From NCBI RefSeq assembly GCF_003319115.1, contig NZ_QOHF01000003.1, positions 62,001 through 126,000 on the forward strand: a stretch of 64,000 nt of DNA, read 5' to 3'. The notes beneath the pieces were generated by a model. That model did not search any database. It was not told the DNA's origin and saw nothing but the letters and a program-made list of their open reading frames with translations. The translations under genes were made by a program, and so were the position numbers. Origin of the DNA: Geodermatophilus sp. TF02-6. Its GTDB lineage: Bacteria > Actinomycetota > Actinomycetes > Mycobacteriales > Geodermatophilaceae. Below, in pieces: positions 684 through 55,965 of this stretch; within the stretch, counting starts at the first letter, position 1, and each line of letters starts with the position of its first letter.

Positions 684-1604
684 CAAGGTGTTGAGAAACG
701 GGTCAGGCTGCCTTCGTTCGTTGCCACGGACGGCGGCCGGGAGCGCGAGCGAGGCGACGGGCCATCAACCCGATCATGGCCCACTTGATCATCGCCTCGG
801 CGTGCTCGGGACGGCGCTCGTAGTCCCGGGCCAGCCGGCGGTGACCAGTAATCCAGGCATGGGTGCGCTCGACCACCCAACGGCGCGGCAGCGGCACGAA
901 CCCGGTCTGCCCGACCAGCTTGGCCACCACCTGCACGACGATGCGCAGCGCGCGGGCGGCGAACTCCTGCACGCGGCGGCTGTAGGCGGCATCGGCCCAG
1001 GTCAGTGCCAGCGAGGGCATGACCGTCTTGGCCCGGTCCAACGCCTGGATGCCGCCGTCGCGGTCTTGCACGCTGGCCGCGGTCACCAGTACCACGATGA
1101 GCAGGCCCAGGGTGTCGACCACCAGGTGCCGCTTGCGACCGTTGATCTTCTTGCCGGCGTCGTAGCCCCGGGTGGCCTTGCCCACGGTCGCCGCGCCGGG
1201 CACCGACTGGGAGTCGATCGCGCCGGCCGAGGCCATCGGGTCGCGGCCGGCGGCATCCCGGGCCGCATCCCGCAGCGTGTCGTGGATGCGGTCGACGGTG
1301 CCATCGGCGGTCCAGGACTGGAAGTAGAAGTACACCGTCGCCCACGGCGGGAAGTCATGCGGCAGCTGCCGCCACGAACAGCTCGTGCGCACCACGTACA
1401 AGATTGCCTCGACGATGCGCCGCCGCGGGTACTTGGGCGGGCGCCCGCCGCGGGTACCGCGGCCACGGGTGCTGAGTACTGGCACCAGTGGCTCGATCAG
1501 CGCCCACTGAGCATCGGTCAGGTCCGAGGGGTAGGCCGGGGAAGAGCCCATGCCTCAGCCTCGCCGACCCGGCCGCCGGTGTCAGCAGCCTTACTCAACA
1601 CGTT
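684..1604 (-). mobile_element. IS5-like insertion sequence, complete
   Basis: An element of about 921 bp carrying one transposase gene. The ends form an inverted repeat: AAGGTGTTGAG at 685-695 and CTCAACACGTT at 1594-1604, 10 of 11 matching. CTGA occurs at 680-683 and again at 1605-1608, fitting a 4 bp target duplication of the CTNA type used by many IS5-family elements. The left end has one extra base (684) relative to the inverted repeat, so the exact boundary is uncertain by one base. The element lies between an aldehyde dehydrogenase and an alcohol dehydrogenase without breaking either. Confidence 0.85.
703..1551 (-). CDS. IS5 family (IS427-like) DDE transposase
   Basis: A 282-residue single-frame transposase. 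The N-terminal part (about residues 5-75, LTDAQWALIEPLVP onward) is the IS5-type DNA-binding region. The DDE catalytic residues are visible as D in AIDSQS, D in WADAAYS and E in VVERTHAW, and the conserved GYDAGKKINGRKRH stretch lies between the first two. Many relatives need a programmed frameshift between two reading frames; here the frame is continuous and the gene looks intact. It is transcribed against the flanking operon. Confidence 0.93.
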   Translation of the reverse strand: MGSSPAYPSDLTDAQWALIEPLVPVLSTRGRGTRGGRPPKYPRRRIVEAILYVVRTSCSWRQLPHDFPPWATVYFYFQSWTADGTVDRIHDTLRDAARDAAGRDPMASAGAIDSQSVPGAATVGKATRGYDAGKKINGRKRHLVVDTLGLLIVVLVTAASVQDRDGGIQALDRAKTVMPSLALTWADAAYSRRVQEFAARALRIVVQVVAKLVGQTGFVPLPRRWVVERTHAWITGHRRLARDYERRPEHAEAMIKWAMIGLMARRLARAPGRRPWQRTKAA

Positions 1605-2883: not shown

Positions 2884-3033
2884 AAAAAGCGTCGCCGGCC
2901 GGTCCGGCTGCCGACACGATCGACGTGGACGGCGGACCCCGGTGCCCGCGCCCTCGGCGCCCGACCCCTCACCGCCGCCCCCGGATCCCACGACGACCGC
3001 GCGGCCGCCCGTCGCGCCGGAGGTGACCGCGCA

Positions 3034-3600
3034 ATGGCGACGCTCGCCGACATCCTCGACCCGACCGGGCAGTCGGTGGCCCGGATCGGCGCCACGGCCC
3101 ACGCCCCCCGCCGCGCCGGCCTCACCGGCGTGCGGCTGGGCCTGCTGGAGAACACCAAGCACAACGCGGCCCTGCTGCTCGACGAGCTGGCCGCGCTGCT
3201 GCAGCACGAGCACGGCGCGTCGAGCACCGTCCTGCGCCGCACCAAGACCGCGTTCGCGCTGCCGCTGCCCGAGGAGCAGCTGGCCGAGCTCGTCCGGGAG
3301 TGCGACGTCGTCCTCACCGGCGTCGGGGACTGCGGCTCCTGCAGCGCCTCGGCGGTCGCCGACGGCATCGCCCTCGAGCGGGCCGGCGTGCCCGCCGCGG
3401 TCGTCTGCTCCGACGCCTTCACCGCCACGGCCAGCGGGATGGCCGAGGTGCAGGGCGCACCGGACTACCACTACCTGACCACCGCCCACCCGGTGGCCGT
3501 CCTCGACCCCGACGCCGTCCGCGAGCGGGCGCGCCAGCTGCTGCCGCAGGTCGTGGCCACCCTCACCGAGGCCGGGCCGGCGCAGCGGGCGGCCTCGTGA
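3034..3600 (+). CDS. UGSC-family protein, cysteine form
   Basis: A 188-residue protein resembling the UGSC (seleno)protein family, named for a U-G-S-C motif. Here the motif reads DCGSC, with Cys100 and Cys103 (codons TGC at 3331 and 3340), so this is a Cys homologue and not a selenoprotein. The rest is an alpha/beta fold-like sequence with LLENTKHNA near the N-terminus and a VVCSDAFTATA stretch. ATG at 3034 is preceded by GGAGGTGA. It overlaps the next gene by 4 nt (GTGA). Redox or thiol chemistry is suggested by the motif; the actual reaction of this family is not known to me. Confidence 0.8.
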   Translation: MATLADILDPTGQSVARIGATAHAPRRAGLTGVRLGLLENTKHNAALLLDELAALLQHEHGASSTVLRRTKTAFALPLPEEQLAELVRECDVVLTGVGDCGSCSASAVADGIALERAGVPAAVVCSDAFTATASGMAEVQGAPDYHYLTTAHPVAVLDPDAVRERARQLLPQVVATLTEAGPAQRAAS

Positions 3601-4697
3601 GCGTGGACACCGAGGCCCCGGCCGTCGTCCCGGACGCCGACCCCGAGGCCGCCCAGGCGGCGATCGAGCACTGCTACGCCCAGGGCTGGTCCGACGGGCT
3701 GCCGCTGGTGCCGGCCACCCGCCCGCTGGTCGACCGCTTCCTGGCCACCGTGGACCGCCGGCCCGACGAGGTCATCGGCGCGCTGGAGCACCTCAACCGG
3801 ACGGTGACCGTCGAACTGGCCGCCATCAACGCGGCCATGGCCGGCTGCCGGCCCGAGTACTTCCCGGTGGTGCTCGCCGCCTGGGAGGCCGTGCAGCGCG
3901 ACCGGTCGGCCACGGGCGGCGGCTGGCAGTCCACCAGCGGCCCCTCGCCGCTGCTCGTCGTGAACGGCCCGGTCCGCGCCGAGCTGGGCTTCAACGCCGC
4001 CGGCGGCGTCTTCGGCCCCGGGTTCCGGCCCAACACGACCGTCCCGCGCACCATCGGGCTCATCGTCCGCAACGCCCTCGGCGTCGTCCCGCACGGCTTC
4101 GAGCAGGCCACCCAGGGCCTGCCCGGCCGCTGGCAGGTCTGCCTCGCCGAGAACGAGGAGGAGAGCCCCTGGGAGCCGCTGTCGGTCGACGGCGGCGTGC
4201 CGGCCGGCACCTCGGCGGTCTCCGGGTTCCTCACCCGCACTGTGGAGTACGTCGACAACCGGCACACCGCCGACCCCGAGCAGCTGCTCGCCGACTTCGC
4301 CGACACCATCTCCCGCAGCGGCGCGGCGATCTTCCGCCACCACCCGGCCGGGATCGTCTTCTGCCCCGAGCACGCACAGATGCTGGCCGGGGCCGGGATG
4401 GGCAAGGCCGACGTCCGGGCCTGGCTGGTCGAGCGCTGCGGCCGCACCAAGGCCGACCTGGCGCGCGTCGGCAAGGACGGCGTCGGCGACAACGGCGTGC
4501 GCTTCGCCGACGGCTCCACCGACCCGGACACCTTCGACCGGCTGTTCGCCTCCGATGGGCCCGAGGTGCTGCCGATCGTCGTCGCCGGTGCCCGCAACGC
4601 CGGCATCTCGATGGTGGTGCGGGTCTTCGCCGGCTGGTCGGCCAGCTCCGTCCCGGTCGTCGGCCGGACCACCCCACCGCAGGAGGCCGCTCCGTGA
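3597..4697 (+). CDS. Conserved protein of unknown function, partner of the UGSC protein
   Basis: A 366-residue protein starting at the GTG that overlaps the UGSC stop. I do not recognise an enzyme family with certainty. Visible features are an N-terminal GWSDGLPLVPATRP stretch (about residues 30-43) also seen in proteins encoded next to or fused with UGSC proteins, a second conserved-looking region FGPGFRPNTTVPR, and no signal peptide or membrane span. Translational coupling on both sides (4 nt overlaps) implies stoichiometric expression with the UGSC protein and the following SDR. A heteromeric complex is an inference. Confidence 0.7.
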   Translation: MSVDTEAPAVVPDADPEAAQAAIEHCYAQGWSDGLPLVPATRPLVDRFLATVDRRPDEVIGALEHLNRTVTVELAAINAAMAGCRPEYFPVVLAAWEAVQRDRSATGGGWQSTSGPSPLLVVNGPVRAELGFNAAGGVFGPGFRPNTTVPRTIGLIVRNALGVVPHGFEQATQGLPGRWQVCLAENEEESPWEPLSVDGGVPAGTSAVSGFLTRTVEYVDNRHTADPEQLLADFADTISRSGAAIFRHHPAGIVFCPEHAQMLAGAGMGKADVRAWLVERCGRTKADLARVGKDGVGDNGVRFADGSTDPDTFDRLFASDGPEVLPIVVAGARNAGISMVVRVFAGWSASSVPVVGRTTPPQEAAP

Positions 4698-5587
4698 CCA
4701 TCCCCCTCGACGACCCGTTCGGCGCCGCCGGCGACGCCTGGATGACCGGCCGCACCGCTCTGGTCACCGGTGGGGGGCAGACCAGCGACGTCCACCCCGG
4801 CGTCGGCTACGCCATCAGCCGGGTGCTCGCCGCGCACGGGGCGCAGGTCGCCGTCCTCGACCGGGACGAGGCCGCAGCCCGGAGGACGGTGCAGCGGATC
4901 GAGGCCGACGGCGGGACGGCGGTCGTCGTCGTGGCCGACCTGCTCGACGACGACGCCTGCCGGGGGGCGGTCGAGCAGACCGTCGCCGCCCTCGGCGGGC
5001 TGGACACCCTGGTCAACAACGTGGCCGTCGGCGACCGCGCGGGCATCTTCGAGGTGAGCCCCGAGCGCTTCTCCCAGCTGATGGACCTCAACCTGACCAC
5101 CGCCTGGCAGATGACCCGCCACGCGGTCGAGGTGCTCAGGCACGGCGGCGCCATCGTCAACATCAGCTCCGTCGGCGTGCGCGCCCGCGGGCCGGGCATG
5201 GTCTACAACCTGGCCAAGGCGGCCCTGGAGAACCTGACCGTCGGGGCGGCCAACACCCTCGGCGACCGCGGCGTCCGGGTCAACTGCGTGCAGGTCGGCG
5301 CGATCTGGGGCGCGTTCGCCGCGGCCAACACGTCCGAGCAGATGCGCGCGGTCCGCAAGGGTTGGTCGGCGCTGGGCACCGAGGGCACGCCGTGGGACAT
5401 CGCCCAGGCGGTGCTGTTCCTCGCCAGCGACCGGGCCCGCTGGATCTCGGGGCAGATCCTGTCGGTGGACGGCGGCCCGAGCACCCCCAAGCCGCCACCG
5501 GGGGCGGCCGCCCCGGCCGCGCCCGCCGTCGAGGCCAGCACGCTGGAGATCACCAGCTCCGAGGGCGTTCCGTCGGTGCACCCGTGA
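4694..5587 (+). CDS. Short-chain dehydrogenase/reductase (SDR) 1
   Basis: A 297-residue classical SDR. The cofactor motif is TGGGQTSDVHPGVG, with an unusual insertion between the glycines. NNVAVG replaces the common NNAG. The catalytic Ser is in NISSVG and YxxxK is in VYNLAK. The C-terminus (about residues 265-297) is a Pro/Ala-rich tail beyond the usual SDR end. It starts at the ATG overlapping the previous stop, and its own stop overlaps the next SDR. The substrate is unknown; it belongs to the UGSC operon. Confidence 0.9.
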   Translation: MTIPLDDPFGAAGDAWMTGRTALVTGGGQTSDVHPGVGYAISRVLAAHGAQVAVLDRDEAAARRTVQRIEADGGTAVVVVADLLDDDACRGAVEQTVAALGGLDTLVNNVAVGDRAGIFEVSPERFSQLMDLNLTTAWQMTRHAVEVLRHGGAIVNISSVGVRARGPGMVYNLAKAALENLTVGAANTLGDRGVRVNCVQVGAIWGAFAAANTSEQMRAVRKGWSALGTEGTPWDIAQAVLFLASDRARWISGQILSVDGGPSTPKPPPGAAAPAAPAVEASTLEITSSEGVPSVHP

Positions 5588-6450
5588 ACGGGGACCGGGT
5601 CGCGCTGGTCACCGGCTGCGGCAAGCCCGACGGGATGGGCCAGGCGATCGCCCGCGCCCTCGCCGGCCGGGGGCTGGCCGTCGTCGTCACCGACGTGGCG
5701 CCCACCGGGGTGTCCAACCGGCAGCAGGAGGGCCGCTCCACCGGGTGGGGCGGGCTGGAGGCGTTGGTCGCCGAGATCACCGAGGCCGGCGGGACGGCGA
5801 GCGGCGTCCTCGGGGACGTCGCCGTCGAGGCCGACGCCGAGCGCATGGTCGGCGCGGCGGTGGAGCGGCACGGCCGGCTCGACGTGCTGGTCAACAACGC
5901 GGCCGCCCCGCAGGGCCCCGACCGCGCCGACGTGGCCGACATCCCGGCCGAGGTCTTCGACCGCGTGCTGGCGGTCAACCTGCGCGGGCCCTGGCTGATG
6001 AGCCGGGCCGCGGTCCCGGTCATGCGCGCCCAGCGGTGGGGCCGGATCGTGAACATCTCCTCGATGGCCGGGCTCACCGCCGCGCCGTCCTCCGGCCCGT
6101 ACTCGGCGTCCAAGGCCGGGGTCATCGGGCTGACGCGGGCACTGGCGATGGACCTCGGGCCCTGGGGGATCACCGTCAACGCGCTGTGCCCAGGCCTGGT
6201 CGGCACCAGCCGGGCGTTCCTCACCTCCGGTCCGGACGTCGACGAGGCGGCCGTGCTCCGCCAGCGCGGCCGCGCCATCCCGGTCGGCCGGGTCGGCCTG
6301 CCGGAGGACGTCGCGGCCGCCGTCGCCTTCCTGGCCTCACCCGAGGCCGGCTACATCACCGCCCAGGCCATCCCGATCGACGGCGGGGGGATGAGCCCGT
6401 TCCCGCTGCGCCACCCCGAGCCGGTGGCCGACGGCGCGCAGCCGCGGTGA
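5584..6450 (+). CDS. Short-chain dehydrogenase/reductase (SDR) 2
   Basis: A 288-residue SDR beginning at GTG 5584, which overlaps the previous stop. The cofactor motif is TGCGKPDGMGQA, the NNAA motif is in LVNNAAAP, the catalytic Ser is in NISSMAG and YxxxK is in PYSASK. It is the last gene of the UGSC operon. The paired SDRs suggest two sequential or stereo-opposite oxidations on one substrate class, an inference from position only. A bidirectional hairpin lies between it and ssb. Confidence 0.9.
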   Translation: MNGDRVALVTGCGKPDGMGQAIARALAGRGLAVVVTDVAPTGVSNRQQEGRSTGWGGLEALVAEITEAGGTASGVLGDVAVEADAERMVGAAVERHGRLDVLVNNAAAPQGPDRADVADIPAEVFDRVLAVNLRGPWLMSRAAVPVMRAQRWGRIVNISSMAGLTAAPSSGPYSASKAGVIGLTRALAMDLGPWGITVNALCPGLVGTSRAFLTSGPDVDEAAVLRQRGRAIPVGRVGLPEDVAAAVAFLASPEAGYITAQAIPIDGGGMSPFPLRHPEPVADGAQPR

Positions 6451-6566: not shown

Positions 6567-7067
6567 CTAGAAGGGCGGCTCCTCGCCGAAGCCGCCGACC
6601 GGCGCCGCCCAGGGGTCGGCCGCCCCGCCCCGCCCAGCACCGTCACCGCCACCACCGCCCGCACCGACCTCGCCGCCGGACCCGCCGCGGGGACCACCGT
6701 CGGAACGGGCGGCCTTGGCGACCGTCGCCGTCGCGTAGCGCAACGACGGGCCGATCTCGTCGACCTCCATCTCGACGACGGTGCGCTTGTCGCCCTCCTT
6801 GGTCTCGAAGGAGCGCTGCTTGAGGCGGCCCTGCGCCATGACCCGCGAGCCGCGGGTGAGCGATCCCGCGACGTGCTCGGCCGTCTGCCGCCAGCAGCTG
6901 CAGCGCAGGAAGAGCGCGTCGCCGTCCTTCCACTCCTGGGTCTGGCGGTCCAGGGTGCGCGGGGTGGAGGCGATGGTGAAGTTGGCGACCGCGCCCGAGG
7001 GCGTGAAGCGCAGCTCGGGGTCGCTGGTCAGGTTGCCGATGACGGTGATGACAGTCTCGCCGGCCAT
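6567..7067 (-). CDS. ssb: Single-stranded DNA-binding protein
   Basis: A 166-residue SSB: N-terminal OB fold (about residues 1-110, starting [18 protein letters not shown]), a glycine-rich linker (about 120-150) and an acidic-hydrophobic tail GFGEEPPF that recruits repair partners in this family. ATG at 7067 is preceded by GGAGGACC. The open frame continues upstream across recD2, but that part is antisense to a real gene. It is divergent from recD2 with 234 bp between. Actinobacteria often have a second, essential ssb near rpsF, so this may be the accessory copy. Confidence 0.92.
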
Positions 7068-7301
7068 GATCCGGTCCTCCGTGTTGTCGGTGCGTCGCTC
7101 AGGTGAGCGTCCGGAGGCTACGGGGACCGACTGACAGTTCGGTCCGCGTCGAGTTCGGCCCTCGTCGAGGCGCGGTCGCAGGCGCCGCGCCGCTCGTCCC
7201 GCCGCTCCGGTCGGGCCCGGGAACGGGCCCCTGCACGCAGACGAGCGCCGAAGTGTCCCCCGGGCGTGTGACCATCGGTGGGACGGCGCGGCGACGAGGG
7301 G

Positions 7302-9650
7302 ATGGCGGTGCGAGAGGCGCGGACCGGGGCGGTCCTGGAGGCGACGCTGGAGCGGATCACGTTCGCCAACACCCAGACCGGCTACACCGTGGCCCGGGTG
7401 GACACCGGGCGGGGCGGTGACCTGGTCACCGTGGTGGGGTCGCTGCTGGGCGCGCAACCGGGGGAGACGCTGCGGCTGCGGGGCCGGTGGGGAGCGCACC
7501 CGCAGTACGGCCGGCAGTTCCAGGTCGAGGACTACACCACCGTGCTGCCGGCCACGGTGCAGGGCATCCGCCGCTACCTGGGCTCGGGCCTGGTCAAGGG
7601 GATCGGCCCGCGGCTGGCCGAGCGGATCGTCGACCACTTCGGCACCGACGCGCTGCGGGTCATCGAGGAACAACCCGGACGGCTGGCCGAGGTGCCGAAC
7701 CTGGGCCCCAAGCGGACGCGGCTGATCACCGCGGCCTGGGAGGAGCAGAAGGCCATCAAGGAGGTGATGGTCTTCCTGCAGGGGGTGGGGGTCTCCACCT
7801 CGCTGGCCGTGCGGATCTACAAGCAGTACGGCGACGCCTCGATCGGCGTGGTCCGCAACGAGCCCTACCGGCTGGCCGCCGAGGTGTGGGGCATCGGGTT
7901 CCGGACCGCGGACACCATCGCGGCCGCGGTGGGCATCCGGCACGACAGCCCGCAGCGGATCGAGGCGGGGCTGCAGTTCGTGCTGTCCGAGGCGACCGAG
8001 CAGGGCCACTGCTTCCTGCCCGAACCGGAGCTGGTGACGCGGGCGGTCGAGATCCTGCAGGTCCCGGCCGGCCTGGTGGTCCCGTGTCTGGCCGTCCTGG
8101 TCGCCGAGCAGGGCTTGATCCGCGACGAGCTGCCCGGCCGGGACGCCGGAGCCGGGACGGTGGCGGTCTACCTGGTGCCGTTCCACCGGGCGGAGGTCTC
8201 CCTGGCCGCCGGGCTGAAGCGGCTCGCGACCGCCGAGGCCGACCGGATGCCGGCCTTCGCCGCCGCCGCCGGCGTGGACTGGGACGCCGCGCTGACCTGG
8301 CTGCACCGGCGCACCGGCGTGGAGCTGGCGGCCGGGCAGCAGGCGGCGGTGCGCCTGGCGCTGACCGAGAAGGTCGCCGTCCTCACCGGGGGCCCCGGCT
8401 GCGGCAAGAGCTTCACGGTGCGCTCCATCGTCACCCTGGCCGCGGCCAAGGGCGCGCGGATCGTGCTGGCCGCACCGACCGGTCGAGCGGCCAGACGGCT
8501 GACCGAGCTGACCGGGGTCCAGGCGGTAACCGTGCACCGGCTGCTGGAGCTTCGCCCCGGCGGGGACGCCGCCTTCGACCGGGACCGGCCGCTGGAGGCG
8601 GACCTGGTCGTGGTCGACGAGTCCTCGATGCTGGACCTGCTGCTGGCCAACAAGCTCGTCAGGGCGATCCCGCCGGGCGCGCACCTGTTGCTGGTCGGCG
8701 ACGTCGACCAGCTGCCCTCGGTCGGCGCCGGCGAGGTGCTGCGCGACCTGCTCGCCGAGGGCACCCCGCTCCCGCACGTGCGCCTGACCGAGGTCTTCCG
8801 GCAGGCCAGCCGCTCCGGGGTGGTGACCAACGCCCACCGGATCAACGCCGGCAGCCACCCCCACGTCCGCGGCCTCGACGACTTCTTCCTCTTCGCCACC
8901 GACGACGCCGAGGAGGCCGCCCGGCTCACCGTGGACGTCGTGGTGCGCCGGATCCCGGCCCGCTTCGGCCTGGACCCCCGCCGCGACGTGCAGGTGCTGA
9001 CCCCGGTGCACCGCGGGCCGGCCGGCGCCGGCGCGCTGAACGCGCTGCTGCAGGACGCGCTCACCCCGGCCGGCCCCGACCGGGCCGAGAAGCGCTTCGG
9101 CGGGCGGGTCTTCCGCGTCGGGGACAAGGTCAGCCAGATCCGCAACGACTACGACAAGGGGTCCAACGGGGTGTTCAACGGCACCCAGGGCGTCGTCACC
9201 GCCATCGACCCAGTCGAGCAGACCCTCACCGTCCGCACCGACGAGGACGAGCACGTCGACTACGACTTCGGCGAGCTCGACGAGCTGGTGCACGCCTACG
9301 CCGTCACCGTCCACCGCTCCCAGGGCAGCGAGTACCCCTGCGTCGTCATCCCGCTGACCACCAGCGCCTGGATGATGCTGCAACGCAACCTGCTCTACAC
9401 CGCGGTCACCCGCGCCAAGCAGCTGGTCGTCCTGGTCGGCTCGCCCAGAGCCCTCGGCCAGGCCGTGCGCGCCACCGGCTCCGGACGCCGGCACACCGCC
9501 CTGGCCCACCGCCTGCGCCGGTCCGCGCGTCCGGGGCCGGCCGACCCGCGACGACCGGCGCACGACCCGGCGGGACCCCCGGAGCCCGATCGCCGGGCCC
9601 GGGGCGGCTCCCGACCCGCTCTCCCGCAGGCTGCCCCTGGTCAGCGGTGA
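7302..9650 (+). CDS. recD2: RecD2-type ATP-dependent DNA helicase
   Basis: A 782-residue helicase of superfamily 1. The order is an N-terminal RecD2 domain, a helix-hairpin-helix region (about residues 85-230, [14 protein letters not shown] and [12 protein letters not shown]), Walker A GGPGCGKS (about 362), Walker [11 protein letters not shown] (about 436), and the C-terminal motifs [12 protein letters not shown] and YTAVTRAKQ. No recB or recC is nearby, consistent with the stand-alone RecD2 class that unwinds 5' to 3'. ATG 7302, preceded by GAGGGG, fits better than GTG 7278. The Arg/Pro-rich tail (last 40 residues) looks non-conserved. Confidence 0.93.
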
Positions 9651-54037: not shown

Positions 54038-55216
54038 TCAGTGCCAGAGCGAGCGCTCCGGGTCGAGGGCGGTGAGGGCCAGGGCGACCTGCAGCGTCCA
54101 GCTCCCGCGCGGGTCGGTCGCCGACATCCCGGTGAGCTCGGCGGCCCGCTTGAGCCGGTAGCGCACGGTGTTGGGGTGGACGAACAGCGCCCGCGCGCTG
54201 GCCTCCAGGTTGCCCCCGCCGGCGAGCACCGCGCGCACCGTCTCCAGCACCTCGCCGCCGGCCGTCTGCAGGGGCAGGGCGACCCGCTCGTGCAGCGTCG
54301 CCCGGGCGATCGGGTCGCCGTCGAGGGCGCGCTCGGCCAGCAGCGCGTCGGCCGCCACCGGCCGGGGGGCGCCCGGCCAGGCCCGGGCGGCGCGCAGGCC
54401 GGCGAGGGCGGCCGCCGCGGAGTCCCCGGCCCGGCCGAGTGAGTCGACCACCGGCCCCACCACCACCGGCCCGGGGGCGAACTCGTCGCTGAGCCGCTCG
54501 GCGACCGAGGCGAGGTCGTCCGCGCCGCCGAGGACGACGACCAGCTGGTCGGCGTGCACGCCGACGAGGACCTCGCTGCGCACCTGCCGGGCGGCCCGCC
54601 GGGTCGCGCCGTGCACGTCGCCGTCCCGCGGGGCCGCGCCGACGAGCACGGTGACCGGGCTCATCGCCGCCCAACCCAGCGCCGAGGCGCGGCCGGACAG
54701 CTCCTCGGAGCGCTCGCCGCGGACCAGGGCGTCGACGACGAGAGCCTCCAGCCGCGCGTCCCAGGCGCCGCGGCTCTCGGCGAAGCTGGCGTAGACGTGC
54801 GCGGTGGCGAAGGCGACCTCGCGGCTGAACTGCAGCACGGCCAGCCGCAGCGCGTCGGCGTCCCCGGGCTCGGCGACGGTGTCGACGAAGTCGTCCATGA
54901 CCTCCACGGTGACCTTGACCAGGTCGACGGTGTGCTTGAGCGGCACCACGCGGGCCAGCTCGCGAGGGGCGGCGCCGAAGACCTCCCCGGTCAGCCGCGG
55001 CGGCCGGGACGGGTTGCGGCACCACTCCACGAGCGAGGCGATACCGGCCTGCGCGACGAGCACGACCCAGGAGCGCTGGTCGGCGGGCATGGTGCGGAAC
55101 CAGGACAGCTCGTCGTCCATCCGGGCCACGGCGCGGGTGGCCAGGGACCCGGAGGCGCGTTCGAGCCGCCGGAGGGTCGCGGCGGACGGCGGGCGGGAGC
55201 TCACCCGGTCGGACAC
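54038..55216 (-). CDS. fasR: PucR-type transcriptional activator of fatty acid synthesis (FasR-like)
   Basis: A 392-residue regulator. N-terminal conserved region (WFRTMPADQRSWVVLVAQAGIASLVEWCRNP), a GGDEF-like middle domain (about 180-270), and a PucR C-terminal HTH (NLEASARALFVHPNTVRYRLKRAAELTG). In Streptomyces the orthologous position next to fabD holds FasR, an activator of the fab operon. GTG 55216. Same direction as fabD. Confidence 0.9.
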   Translation of the reverse strand: MSDRVSSRPPSAATLRRLERASGSLATRAVARMDDELSWFRTMPADQRSWVVLVAQAGIASLVEWCRNPSRPPRLTGEVFGAAPRELARVVPLKHTVDLVKVTVEVMDDFVDTVAEPGDADALRLAVLQFSREVAFATAHVYASFAESRGAWDARLEALVVDALVRGERSEELSGRASALGWAAMSPVTVLVGAAPRDGDVHGATRRAARQVRSEVLVGVHADQLVVVLGGADDLASVAERLSDEFAPGPVVVGPVVDSLGRAGDSAAAALAGLRAARAWPGAPRPVAADALLAERALDGDPIARATLHERVALPLQTAGGEVLETVRAVLAGGGNLEASARALFVHPNTVRYRLKRAAELTGMSATDPRGSWTLQVALALTALDPERSLWH

Positions 55217-55275
55217 GCTGCCAGCGTGTCACGGGACGCCGTGTCGTGGGATCCGATGTCGGGGACAGTGGGCCC

Positions 55276-55965
55276 GTGGACGTACTGCGATGGGACCGGG
55301 CTCGGACGGCGCGCCGGCGAGCGCTGGCCGCGGTCGGCGCCGGCGTGGCGGTGCTCGCCGTCCTGGGCGCCGGGGTGCTGGTCGGCTTCGGCCCGCAGGT
55401 CCGCCTGGACGACGCGGTCAGCCGCGTGCTCTACGCCGGCGACGACCGCTCCGCCCTGCGCGGGGCGGTGCTGGAGGTGCTCACCACACCGGGGGTCGCC
55501 TGGTTCCGGGTGCTGGTCTCCCTGCCGGTGCTGTTCTGGCTGGGCACGCGCCGGGCGTGGTGGACGGCGGGCTGGGTGGTGACCGCGAACGTGACCGTCG
55601 GCCCGCTGACCGAGCTGCTCAAGCAGGTCGTCGGCCGGGCCCGCCCGGCGTTCGAGAACGGCGGGGCCACCTACGCCGACCTGAGCTTCCCCAGCGGGCA
55701 CTCCTCGGGCATCGCCACGCTGGTCACCGTGGCCCTGGTACTGGCCTGGCCGCGGCTGTCCGCCCGGCAGCGCTGGCCCGCGGCCGCGCTCGGGGTGGGC
55801 CTGGTCGTCCTCGTGGGGCTGACCCGGATGTGGCTGGGCGTGCACTACCTCTCCGACGTCGTCGGCGGCTGGTCCCTGGGCGTGGCCTGGACGCTGGCGC
55901 TCGCGCTGGCCTTCGGCGCGCTGCCCGGCGGCCGCGCCGCCCTGCCGACCCGGGAGGCTCCGTGA
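55276..55965 (+). CDS. PAP2 superfamily membrane phosphatase
   Basis: A 229-residue membrane protein with about six spans. The three phosphatase motifs are intact: KQVVGRARP, PSGHS, and TRMWLGVHYLSD. Likely removes phosphate from a lipid such as undecaprenyl or phosphatidic acid pyro/monophosphate. GTG 55276 chosen over 55246 as it starts right before the first charged segment. Divergent from fasR (59 bp). It overlaps the cupin gene by 4 nt. Confidence 0.92.
   Translation: MDVLRWDRARTARRRALAAVGAGVAVLAVLGAGVLVGFGPQVRLDDAVSRVLYAGDDRSALRGAVLEVLTTPGVAWFRVLVSLPVLFWLGTRRAWWTAGWVVTANVTVGPLTELLKQVVGRARPAFENGGATYADLSFPSGHSSGIATLVTVALVLAWPRLSARQRWPAAALGVGLVVLVGLTRMWLGVHYLSDVVGGWSLGVAWTLALALAFGALPGGRAALPTREAP

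Follow-up and report, generated by a model that had tools for sequence, protein, structure and literature searches.

Organization of the locus

The locus raises the question of what a small protein from a family noticed through selenoproteins does in one operon with a large partner and two SDR oxidoreductases. In surface waters, UGSC proteins rank with the most abundant selenoproteins, yet to our knowledge they have remained without known function since at least 2008. In the window (the whole 64,000-nucleotide stretch of DNA from the soil actinobacterium Geodermatophilus sp. TF02-6 analysed here), four plus-strand genes encode a UGSC-family protein in its Cys form (3034-3600; 188 aa), an unnamed partner (3597-4697; 366 aa), SDR 1 (4694-5587; 297 aa; PF13561/PF00106) and SDR 2 (5584-6450; 288 aa; an SDR by Pfam). 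Checking the four ORFs verified the tightly coupled arrangement of the initial annotation, with a 4-nt GTGA overlap at each junction (3597-3600, 4694-4697 and 5584-5587); SDR 1 is translationally coupled. A ribosome-binding sequence, read from the sequence as GGAGGTGA (3019-3026, plus strand), lies 7 nt 5' of the UGSC ATG. SDR 2 is similar to mycofactocin-coupled SDRs, but its TIGR03971 score (171.3 bits) was below the cut-off of 300 and the assignment to that class was rejected.

Upstream of the operon, the nearby alcohol/aldehyde dehydrogenase pair could be specified on the plus strand: a Zn-ADH (1620-2741) of the NDMA-dependent, mycofactocin type (TIGR03989, 503.9 bits against a cut-off of 440), and the C-terminal half of an ALDH (1-683; PF00171), the rest of which lies upstream of the window (complete ALDH gene at 7206-8681 of locus L031). 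MftC is present in the host genome, and the ADH is likely in the same regulon as the UGSC operon. ORF reading and locus comparison also placed an IS-type transposase between ALDH and ADH (703-1551, minus strand), on which the initial annotation was silent; G. sabuli and G. ruber lack this insertion, and their ALDH and ADH genes are separated by about 12 nt.

UGSC and its partner form a conserved unit

A lack of conserved linkage between UGSC and the partner in other genomes had been named beforehand as what would refute a common module, and the linkage was found to be clearly conserved. Among 296 Actinomycetota genomes, the partner was present in 23 and UGSC in 22, with both in 22/22 UGSC genomes (Fisher 2.5e-32), and 33 of the 36 UGSC genes in this set were located <300 bp from a partner gene. 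Conversely, UGSC was present at 77 of 79 partner loci, 76 of them with the two genes in the same orientation (36 in one gene order and 40 in the other), and the pair recurred in at least seven bacterial phyla, in either order. Moreover the 4-nt UGSC/partner overlap was kept in 20 of the 22 close-clade loci, and thus the coupling is not a matter of chance.

That the two genes are merely co-inherited neighbours, with the window copy a degenerate selenoprotein relic, has to be weighed against a well-preserved unit. Decay would fit two observations: ~7 kb upstream of the window lies what remains, after deletion, of a second Cys-form UGSC copy, and an IS element has split the adjacent ALDH-ADH pair; however, the Cys form is retained with an invariant motif, and the overlap with it, in >20 actinobacterial loci, and the window copy is intact and has near relatives (84-91% identity for UGSC and 90-92% for the partner), which makes a relic highly improbable.

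It is UGSC and the partner that constitute the conserved unit, the SDRs being frequent lineage-specific neighbours. The initial annotation had proposed a catabolic module with coupled SDRs; the catabolic neighbourhood stood, while the SDR pair as part of a conserved core did not, since an SDR was found in 18/22 close-clade loci and only patchily elsewhere. Zn-ADH was present in 17/22 close-clade loci, and many pairs outside the close clade adjoin acyl-CoA, LLM, IlvD or ABC genes. Across the UGSC-partner loci, the neighbours included ADH, ALDH, LLM, Amidohydro_2, CoA-transferase, CoA-ligase, ABC importer and IclR genes. A minority of loci had TrxR or CxxC genes nearby: TrxR above cut-off adjoined the pair in L046 and L060 (with a related gene in L063), and a CxxC mini-protein was encoded near the pair in nine loci. 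Neighbour genes thus differ widely among lineages, and therefore no single substrate is implied.

UGSC is remotely related to the Sec domain of GrdB/PrdB

Profile searches placed the first gene product in the UGSC family above both curated cut-offs (PF24696, 219.3 bits against 25; NF041046, 178.4 bits against 125), and the CGSC motif reported for it is present (C100-G-S-C103; 3331-3342, plus strand). Comparison with paralogs and relatives showed that C100 (TGC at 3331-3333) occupies the selenocysteine position. C/U100, G101 and C103 were invariant in an alignment of 70 UGSC members; in the family, [UC]GxC, D110 and E115 are invariant and HP is nearly so.

The AF2 model of the protein (pLDDT 90.7) predicts a flavodoxin/Rossmann-like alpha/beta sandwich. 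Its fold matches (a designed cage protein, lumazine synthase, NagZ and others; E about 6e-4) reflect generic alpha/beta similarity and were not taken as a guide to function. The published guess of a Trx fold for UGSC found support neither in the modelled sandwich nor in the top 50 PDB matches, few of which were significant and among which thioredoxin-fold entries were absent. A sequence search of the PDB with the UGSC and partner profiles returned zero matches.

GrdB and PrdB are subunits of glycine/sarcosine/betaine and D-proline reductases. When the UGSC profile was aligned by hhalign with GrdB/PrdB Sec domains (the GrdB domains gathered by HMM search), the match reached 95.0% with a score of 52.8, Sec falling on Sec and the HP motif being kept, with the alignment confined to 62-75 columns surrounding the motif; none of 60 shuffles scored above 20.1, and none of 17 unrelated families above 24.4 (3.5%). 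In the Pfam search of the 70 UGSC members (E up to 1), PF07355 was absent from the families listed. By profile comparison, UGSC is thus remotely homologous to the Sec domain of GrdB/PrdB (PF07355), and the window protein is predicted to be a small subunit with a catalytic thiolate. The suggestion of thiol-based chemistry in the initial annotation is supported, and this relation provides a concrete model for it.

A different role for the thiol would be that of a thiol-disulfide or peroxide-handling redox protein, which guards or regenerates the partner as a conventional enzyme and carries out no direct substrate chemistry. The UxxC motif fits such a role, a large number of UxxC selenoproteins being redox proteins (PMC2398784), and so do the TrxR and CxxC neighbours at some loci. 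On the other hand, the predicted fold is of another kind than thioredoxin, the profile relation points to catalytic subunits, and a general redox factor would not usually be tied so nearly obligately to a single partner family; we thus consider this role unlikely.

The window copy has cysteine in a UAG-selenocysteine host

By its gene content, the host is a UAG-selenocysteine decoder: the genome encodes a tRNA-Sec with anticodon CUA (RF01852, 65.3 bits, anticodon cta) together with selA, selB and selD (TIGR00474, 00475 and 00476, all above cut-offs), and two full UGSC paralogs carry an in-frame TAG exactly at the Sec position. UAG-Sec UGSC proteins were already known in Geodermatophilaceae, as stated in PMC5330540 where it cites its ref. 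56. In most relatives the Sec position of UGSC is TGA and C103 is invariant, while the window copy has TGC and is without an in-frame Sec codon at this position. Its place in the sequence comparison, nested among Sec forms, identifies it as a derived Sec-to-Cys form. In a SECIS test, UGA copies had a mean z of -1.47, the three UAG copies -1.01 and TGC copies -0.38, which is a tendency only; a GGCC-AGTnT-GGCC hairpin is recurrent in actinobacterial Sec copies. The Cys and UAG-Sec versions of UGSC in one genome constitute a natural experiment on the contribution of selenium.

The partner belongs to a separate family

The partner was described at the outset as lacking an assigned function, and indeed neither the window protein nor its 75 relatives (76 members in all) matched any Pfam or NCBIfam model. 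Its AF2 model (pLDDT 92.2, pTM 0.91) had no close fold in the PDB. The best fold matches were to cyanuric acid hydrolase/barbiturase, but with a TM of about 0.2 and a probability of at most 0.25 this homology was rejected. A GrdE-like identity was likewise dismissed (hhalign against PF09338, only 0.5%), and therefore the GrdB/PrdB analogy stops short of the second subunit. Cys84 (codon 3846-3848) is conserved in 75/76 members and Cys182 (codon 4140-4142) in 73/76, both encoded on the plus strand, and the alignment revealed conserved polar residues (D33, R144, N146, R151, E185, E258 and H259). The partner, which constitutes a separate family, is predicted to be the large subunit; by analogy with the known reductases, its most likely role is substrate binding and activation.

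These polar residues, together with the CoA-transferase, CoA-ligase and Amidohydro_2 neighbours, would also suit a lyase, hydrolase or group-transferase in which Cys/Sec serves as a covalent nucleophile (acyl/alkyl transfer) and no net reduction takes place. However, a strict UxxC in which C103 acts as the resolving residue for Sec typically serves redox cycling, and the TrxR and CxxC neighbours and the GrdB/PrdB relation point the same way; we regard such an enzyme as rather improbable.

A proposed thiolate/selenolate enzyme

UGSC and partner together probably form an enzyme that cleaves a chemical bond via reactive sulfur or selenium in the breakdown of nutrients. Our leading explanation, for and against which we see the balance as about equal, is a single GrdB/PrdB-like thiolate/selenolate enzyme that has UGSC and partner as its two subunits and is plugged into catabolic modules. 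In the mechanism proposed, UGSC would carry the catalytic nucleophile (Sec in most lineages, with UGA as its codon and UAG in Geodermatophilaceae; Cys in the window copy) at the end of a beta-strand within its compact alpha/beta domain, and the partner would bind and activate the substrate, the role of GrdE or PrdA in the known reductases. A dehydrogenase or SDR would generate a carbonyl adjacent to the bond due for cleavage; C100 (or Sec) would then attack and displace the leaving group, and C103 would resolve the resulting thio(seleno)ether or mixed disulfide. Reduction of the C100-C103 bond so formed would come from NADPH, via thioredoxin reductase or via a small CxxC protein, the genes for which are neighbours at some loci, and the product would pass to ALDH and then, by CoA-transferase or CoA-ligase steps, to central metabolism. 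Of this scheme, the gene pairing, the relation between the families, the Sec or Cys status and the gene neighbours were observed, and complex formation, the nucleophilic mechanism, the reductive outcome and the type of substrate are inferred.

A broader and somewhat more tentative reading is that the pair represents an undescribed class of two-subunit (seleno)enzymes, which would combine a GrdB/PrdB-derived nucleophile domain with an unrelated new-fold substrate-binding subunit and, in the catabolism of many phyla, cleave carbonyl-activated C-O, C-N or C-S bonds by reduction (or elimination); the window clade would have swapped Sec for Cys despite the UAG-Sec paralogs of the host. One concrete sub-case, by analogy, would be the glutathione-free cleavage of SDR-made alpha-substituted ketones in organisms devoid of glutathione, where the enzyme would correspond functionally to the glutathione-dependent beta-etherases. 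With the near-obligate unnamed partner and the remote GrdB/PrdB link, the "function unknown" of UGSC is turned into a testable hypothesis.

Comparison with known systems

The window protein shares with PF24696/NF041046 its UGSC/CGSC motif, while the existing records are one-gene entries of unknown function. In the literature searched on UGSC, the partner, the operon, the GrdB/PrdB relation and the Cys clade were not found; Supplementary Figure S1 of PMC2398784 (2008 ocean data) is reported to show a UGSC/Unknown_1 fusion. The neighbouring ADHs belong to the mycofactocin-linked NDMA-dependent ADHs (TIGR03989), but they are neighbours and not the core of the UGSC-partner unit.

With GrdE (PF09338, component B proproteins) the partner would share the role of second subunit, while the two are without sequence relation. 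UGSC itself differs from GrdB/PrdB (PF07355) in several respects: it is without the GrdB N-terminal domain, only the C-terminal Sec region being aligned; it is much shorter (188 aa, family about 170-190 aa, against about 430 aa for GrdB); its second subunit is not of the PF09338 type; and its setting is catabolic, with neighbours that use oxygen, LLM monooxygenases among them. On the other hand, in UGSC as in GrdB/PrdB, Sec (or Cys) ends a strand, the helix after it closes with ExxGIP, and a (H/N/Y)P-x-G motif lies downstream. These findings suggest that the catabolic operons of soil and marine bacteria contain a widespread relative of the reductase chemistry familiar in anaerobic fermenters of amino acids.

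The four-gene operon and its flanks

Exactly as the initial annotation had placed them, UGSC (3034-3600, +; above the curated models PF24696 and NF041046), its partner (3597-4697, +; no Pfam or NCBIfam match) and the SDR genes SDR1 (4694-5587, +) and SDR2 (5584-6450, +) were joined by a 4-nt GTGA overlap at every junction, with GGAGGTGA 7 nt upstream of the UGSC start. The partner had also been described as lacking an assigned function, which held for the protein and 75 relatives, none with a Pfam or NCBIfam match above chance. Two dehydrogenase genes lay upstream of the operon: one for an NDMA-dependent alcohol dehydrogenase (ADH; 1620-2741; TIGR03989) and, beyond an IS-type transposase (703-1551, -), the terminal part of one for an aldehyde dehydrogenase (ALDH). 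In the closest named relatives, Geodermatophilus sabuli and G. ruber (partner identity 90-92%), this transposase was absent from the corresponding place and ALDH was ~12 nt from ADH; in the window it may have cut the ADH off from an upstream promoter. Downstream, genes read by eye as encoding a single-strand DNA-binding protein (6567-7070, -) and a RecD-like helicase (7278-9650, +) seem to mark where the catabolic region stops.

Linkage of UGSC and partner across genomes

Of 296 sampled Actinomycetota genomes, 23 had the partner and 22 had UGSC above cut-off. The partner was present in all 22 UGSC genomes (Fisher p = 2.5e-32) and was <=300 bp away for 33 of 36 UGSC matches. Thus the linkage proposed from the window recurred in other genomes. 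Moreover, among 79 named partner loci from a species-level genome collection, UGSC adjoined the partner in 77, the exceptions being L082, which terminates within the partner gene, and L065, with two tandem partners. The pair extended over Actinomycetota, Chloroflexota, Pseudomonadota, Acidobacteriota, Binatota, Tectomicrobia and Rokubacteria. Gene order over the 77 loci was UGSC-partner in 36, partner-UGSC in 40 and on opposite strands in one. Since adjacency was kept despite reversed order, functional coupling is favoured over shared descent of a gene string. UGSC and partner very probably work as one unit.

The predicted partner structure was confident (pLDDT 92.2, pTM 0.91) and matched no PDB structure at E < 0.001. 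Across 76 members, D33, G34, P36, G83, G142, R144, N146 and R151 were invariant, while C84 (75/76), C182 (73/76), E185 (75/76), E258 (74/76) and H259 (72/76) were nearly so, a pattern that fits an enzyme subunit with a putative polar active site. Tandem diverged partner genes, two per locus, occurred in L008 (1501-3495), L015 and L023, in the first two beside a UAG-Sec UGSC, which suggests heteromeric large subunits. One orphan partner (L032:5992-7233, -), with no UGSC beside it, adjoined an FAD oxidoreductase (PF12831), with an IlvD/Edd dehydratase not far; the same two gene types follow a UGSC-partner pair in L068 and L070.

Neighbour genes

Across the window's clade (22 loci), the neighbours were SDRs (18), Zn-type ADH (17), oligopeptide-type ABC transporter parts (11-16), Amidohydro_2 (12), IclR (9), ALDH (9), LLM flavin monooxygenase (7), CoA-transferase (5-6) and AMP-binding enzyme (4). 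Outside the clade these differed (acyl-CoA dehydrogenase, CoA-transferase III, FAD oxidoreductase with IlvD/Edd, LLM and MFS). With neighbours that change between lineages, the pair acts like a catalytic module fitted into a variety of catabolic routes.

A small CxxC protein of no family, typically 81-97 aa, was encoded in nine loci, directly 3' of the partner in six. Mostly directly beside the pair and conserving CxxCLVPK (L055:9008-9253, L056:9020-9265, L062:9035-9277, L046:7084-7329 and L031:816-1322), it is a possible redox partner. L046, L060 and L063 each had a thioredoxin-reductase-type gene close to the pair, and those of the first two passed TIGR01292.

Selenocysteine and the origin of the Cys copy

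Nearly all UGSC paralogs of the genus carried a single in-frame stop codon, precisely where UGSC has its U. Members of Geodermatophilaceae use TAG there; TGA takes its place in another family of the same order and in the other phyla. The window's own genome encodes a tRNA-Sec with anticodon CUA (contig C18:30256-30347, or L034:1501-1592; RF01852, 65.3 bits; ARAGORN also cta), which adjoins selD with selA and selB near (cluster at L042:7226-13485); all three sel genes scored above curated cut-offs. The host reads UAG as selenocysteine. UAG-encoded Sec, UGSC proteins included, has been published for Geodermatophilaceae (PMC5330540, section 17, citing its ref. 56); both UGSC proteins and UAG-Sec are already known. 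Besides the window's Cys gene, the genome has two UAG-Sec UGSC genes (C4:128897-129406 and C1:132705-133211; in locus coordinates L032:18898-19410, -, and L033:6706-7212, +), each beside a partner; automatic annotation would truncate both at TAG.

In the partner tree, Cys copies (23 rows) were nested among Sec forms with three state changes, and within the clade of the window itself a Solirubrobacterales member retained TGA. Therefore the window copy derived from a Sec-to-Cys change. Directly past the Sec codon, Actinomycetota Sec copies shared a GGCC-AGTnT-GGCC hairpin; the mean folding z-score was -1.47 for UGA copies and -0.38 for TGC copies, no more than a tendency towards lower values in the former.

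A second Cys-form pair survives as a remnant ~7 kb upstream of the window (L031:806-1330; C34, about 54805-55330), in which a deletion fuses the beginning of UGSC to the end of the partner and leaves the downstream CxxC mini-gene intact; three relatives (G018, G021 and G022) keep the full pair.

Remote relation to GrdB/PrdB and proposed mechanism

A Trx-like fold for UGSC was suggested in 2008 (PMC2398784). This is not supported, since the AlphaFold2 model was a confident alpha/beta sandwich (pLDDT 90.7) with no thioredoxin-fold entry in its top 50 PDB matches; the matches were generic (e.g., lumazine synthase and NagZ). In the 2008 ocean data UGSC is fused to an 'Unknown_1', which may be the partner. 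Neither the literature searched nor the family libraries yielded the partner family, the two-gene unit, the Cys clade or the relation to GrdB/PrdB.

UGSC resembles the Sec region of GrdB/PrdB in having a strand, UGSC, a helix ending in ExxGIP, and then HP. In profile-profile comparison (hhalign) of a 70-member UGSC alignment with nine full-length GrdB-type and 14 PrdB-like Sec domains from Actinomycetota genomes, the probability was 95.0% and the score 52.8, with Sec aligned to Sec, from modest alignments and without secondary structure. Controls scored lower: the maximum was 20.1 over 60 column shuffles and 24.4 (3.5%) over 17 unrelated neighbour families, and the reversed profile gave 10.9. 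Against GrdB alone the probability was 54-79%, and against PrdB-like domains alone 89.5%. These profiles are good evidence that the Sec domain of UGSC is remotely homologous to that of GrdB/PrdB. PF07355 did not figure in the families listed for any UGSC member, so membership in it is not claimed; profile comparison of the partner with GrdE (PF09338) indicated no relation (0.5%). Full-length GrdB-type selenoproteins (UGTGTRCG or similar) occurred in Actinomycetota genomes (L126-L134), and all nine genomes with them also had PF09338 genes.

In the mechanism we propose for the putative complex, C100 (Sec elsewhere) would act as a nucleophile, most likely displacing a leaving group from a partner-held substrate of a class activated by a neighbouring carbonyl; C103 would resolve the adduct, and NADPH-derived electrons would re-reduce the C100/C103 pair. 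SDRs and mycofactocin-type ADHs would generate the carbonyl or act on the product; MftC is encoded in the window's genome. The models for this scheme are the chemistry of GrdB/PrdB and that of glutathione-dependent beta-etherases; we put the chances of a GrdB/PrdB-like mechanism at about even.
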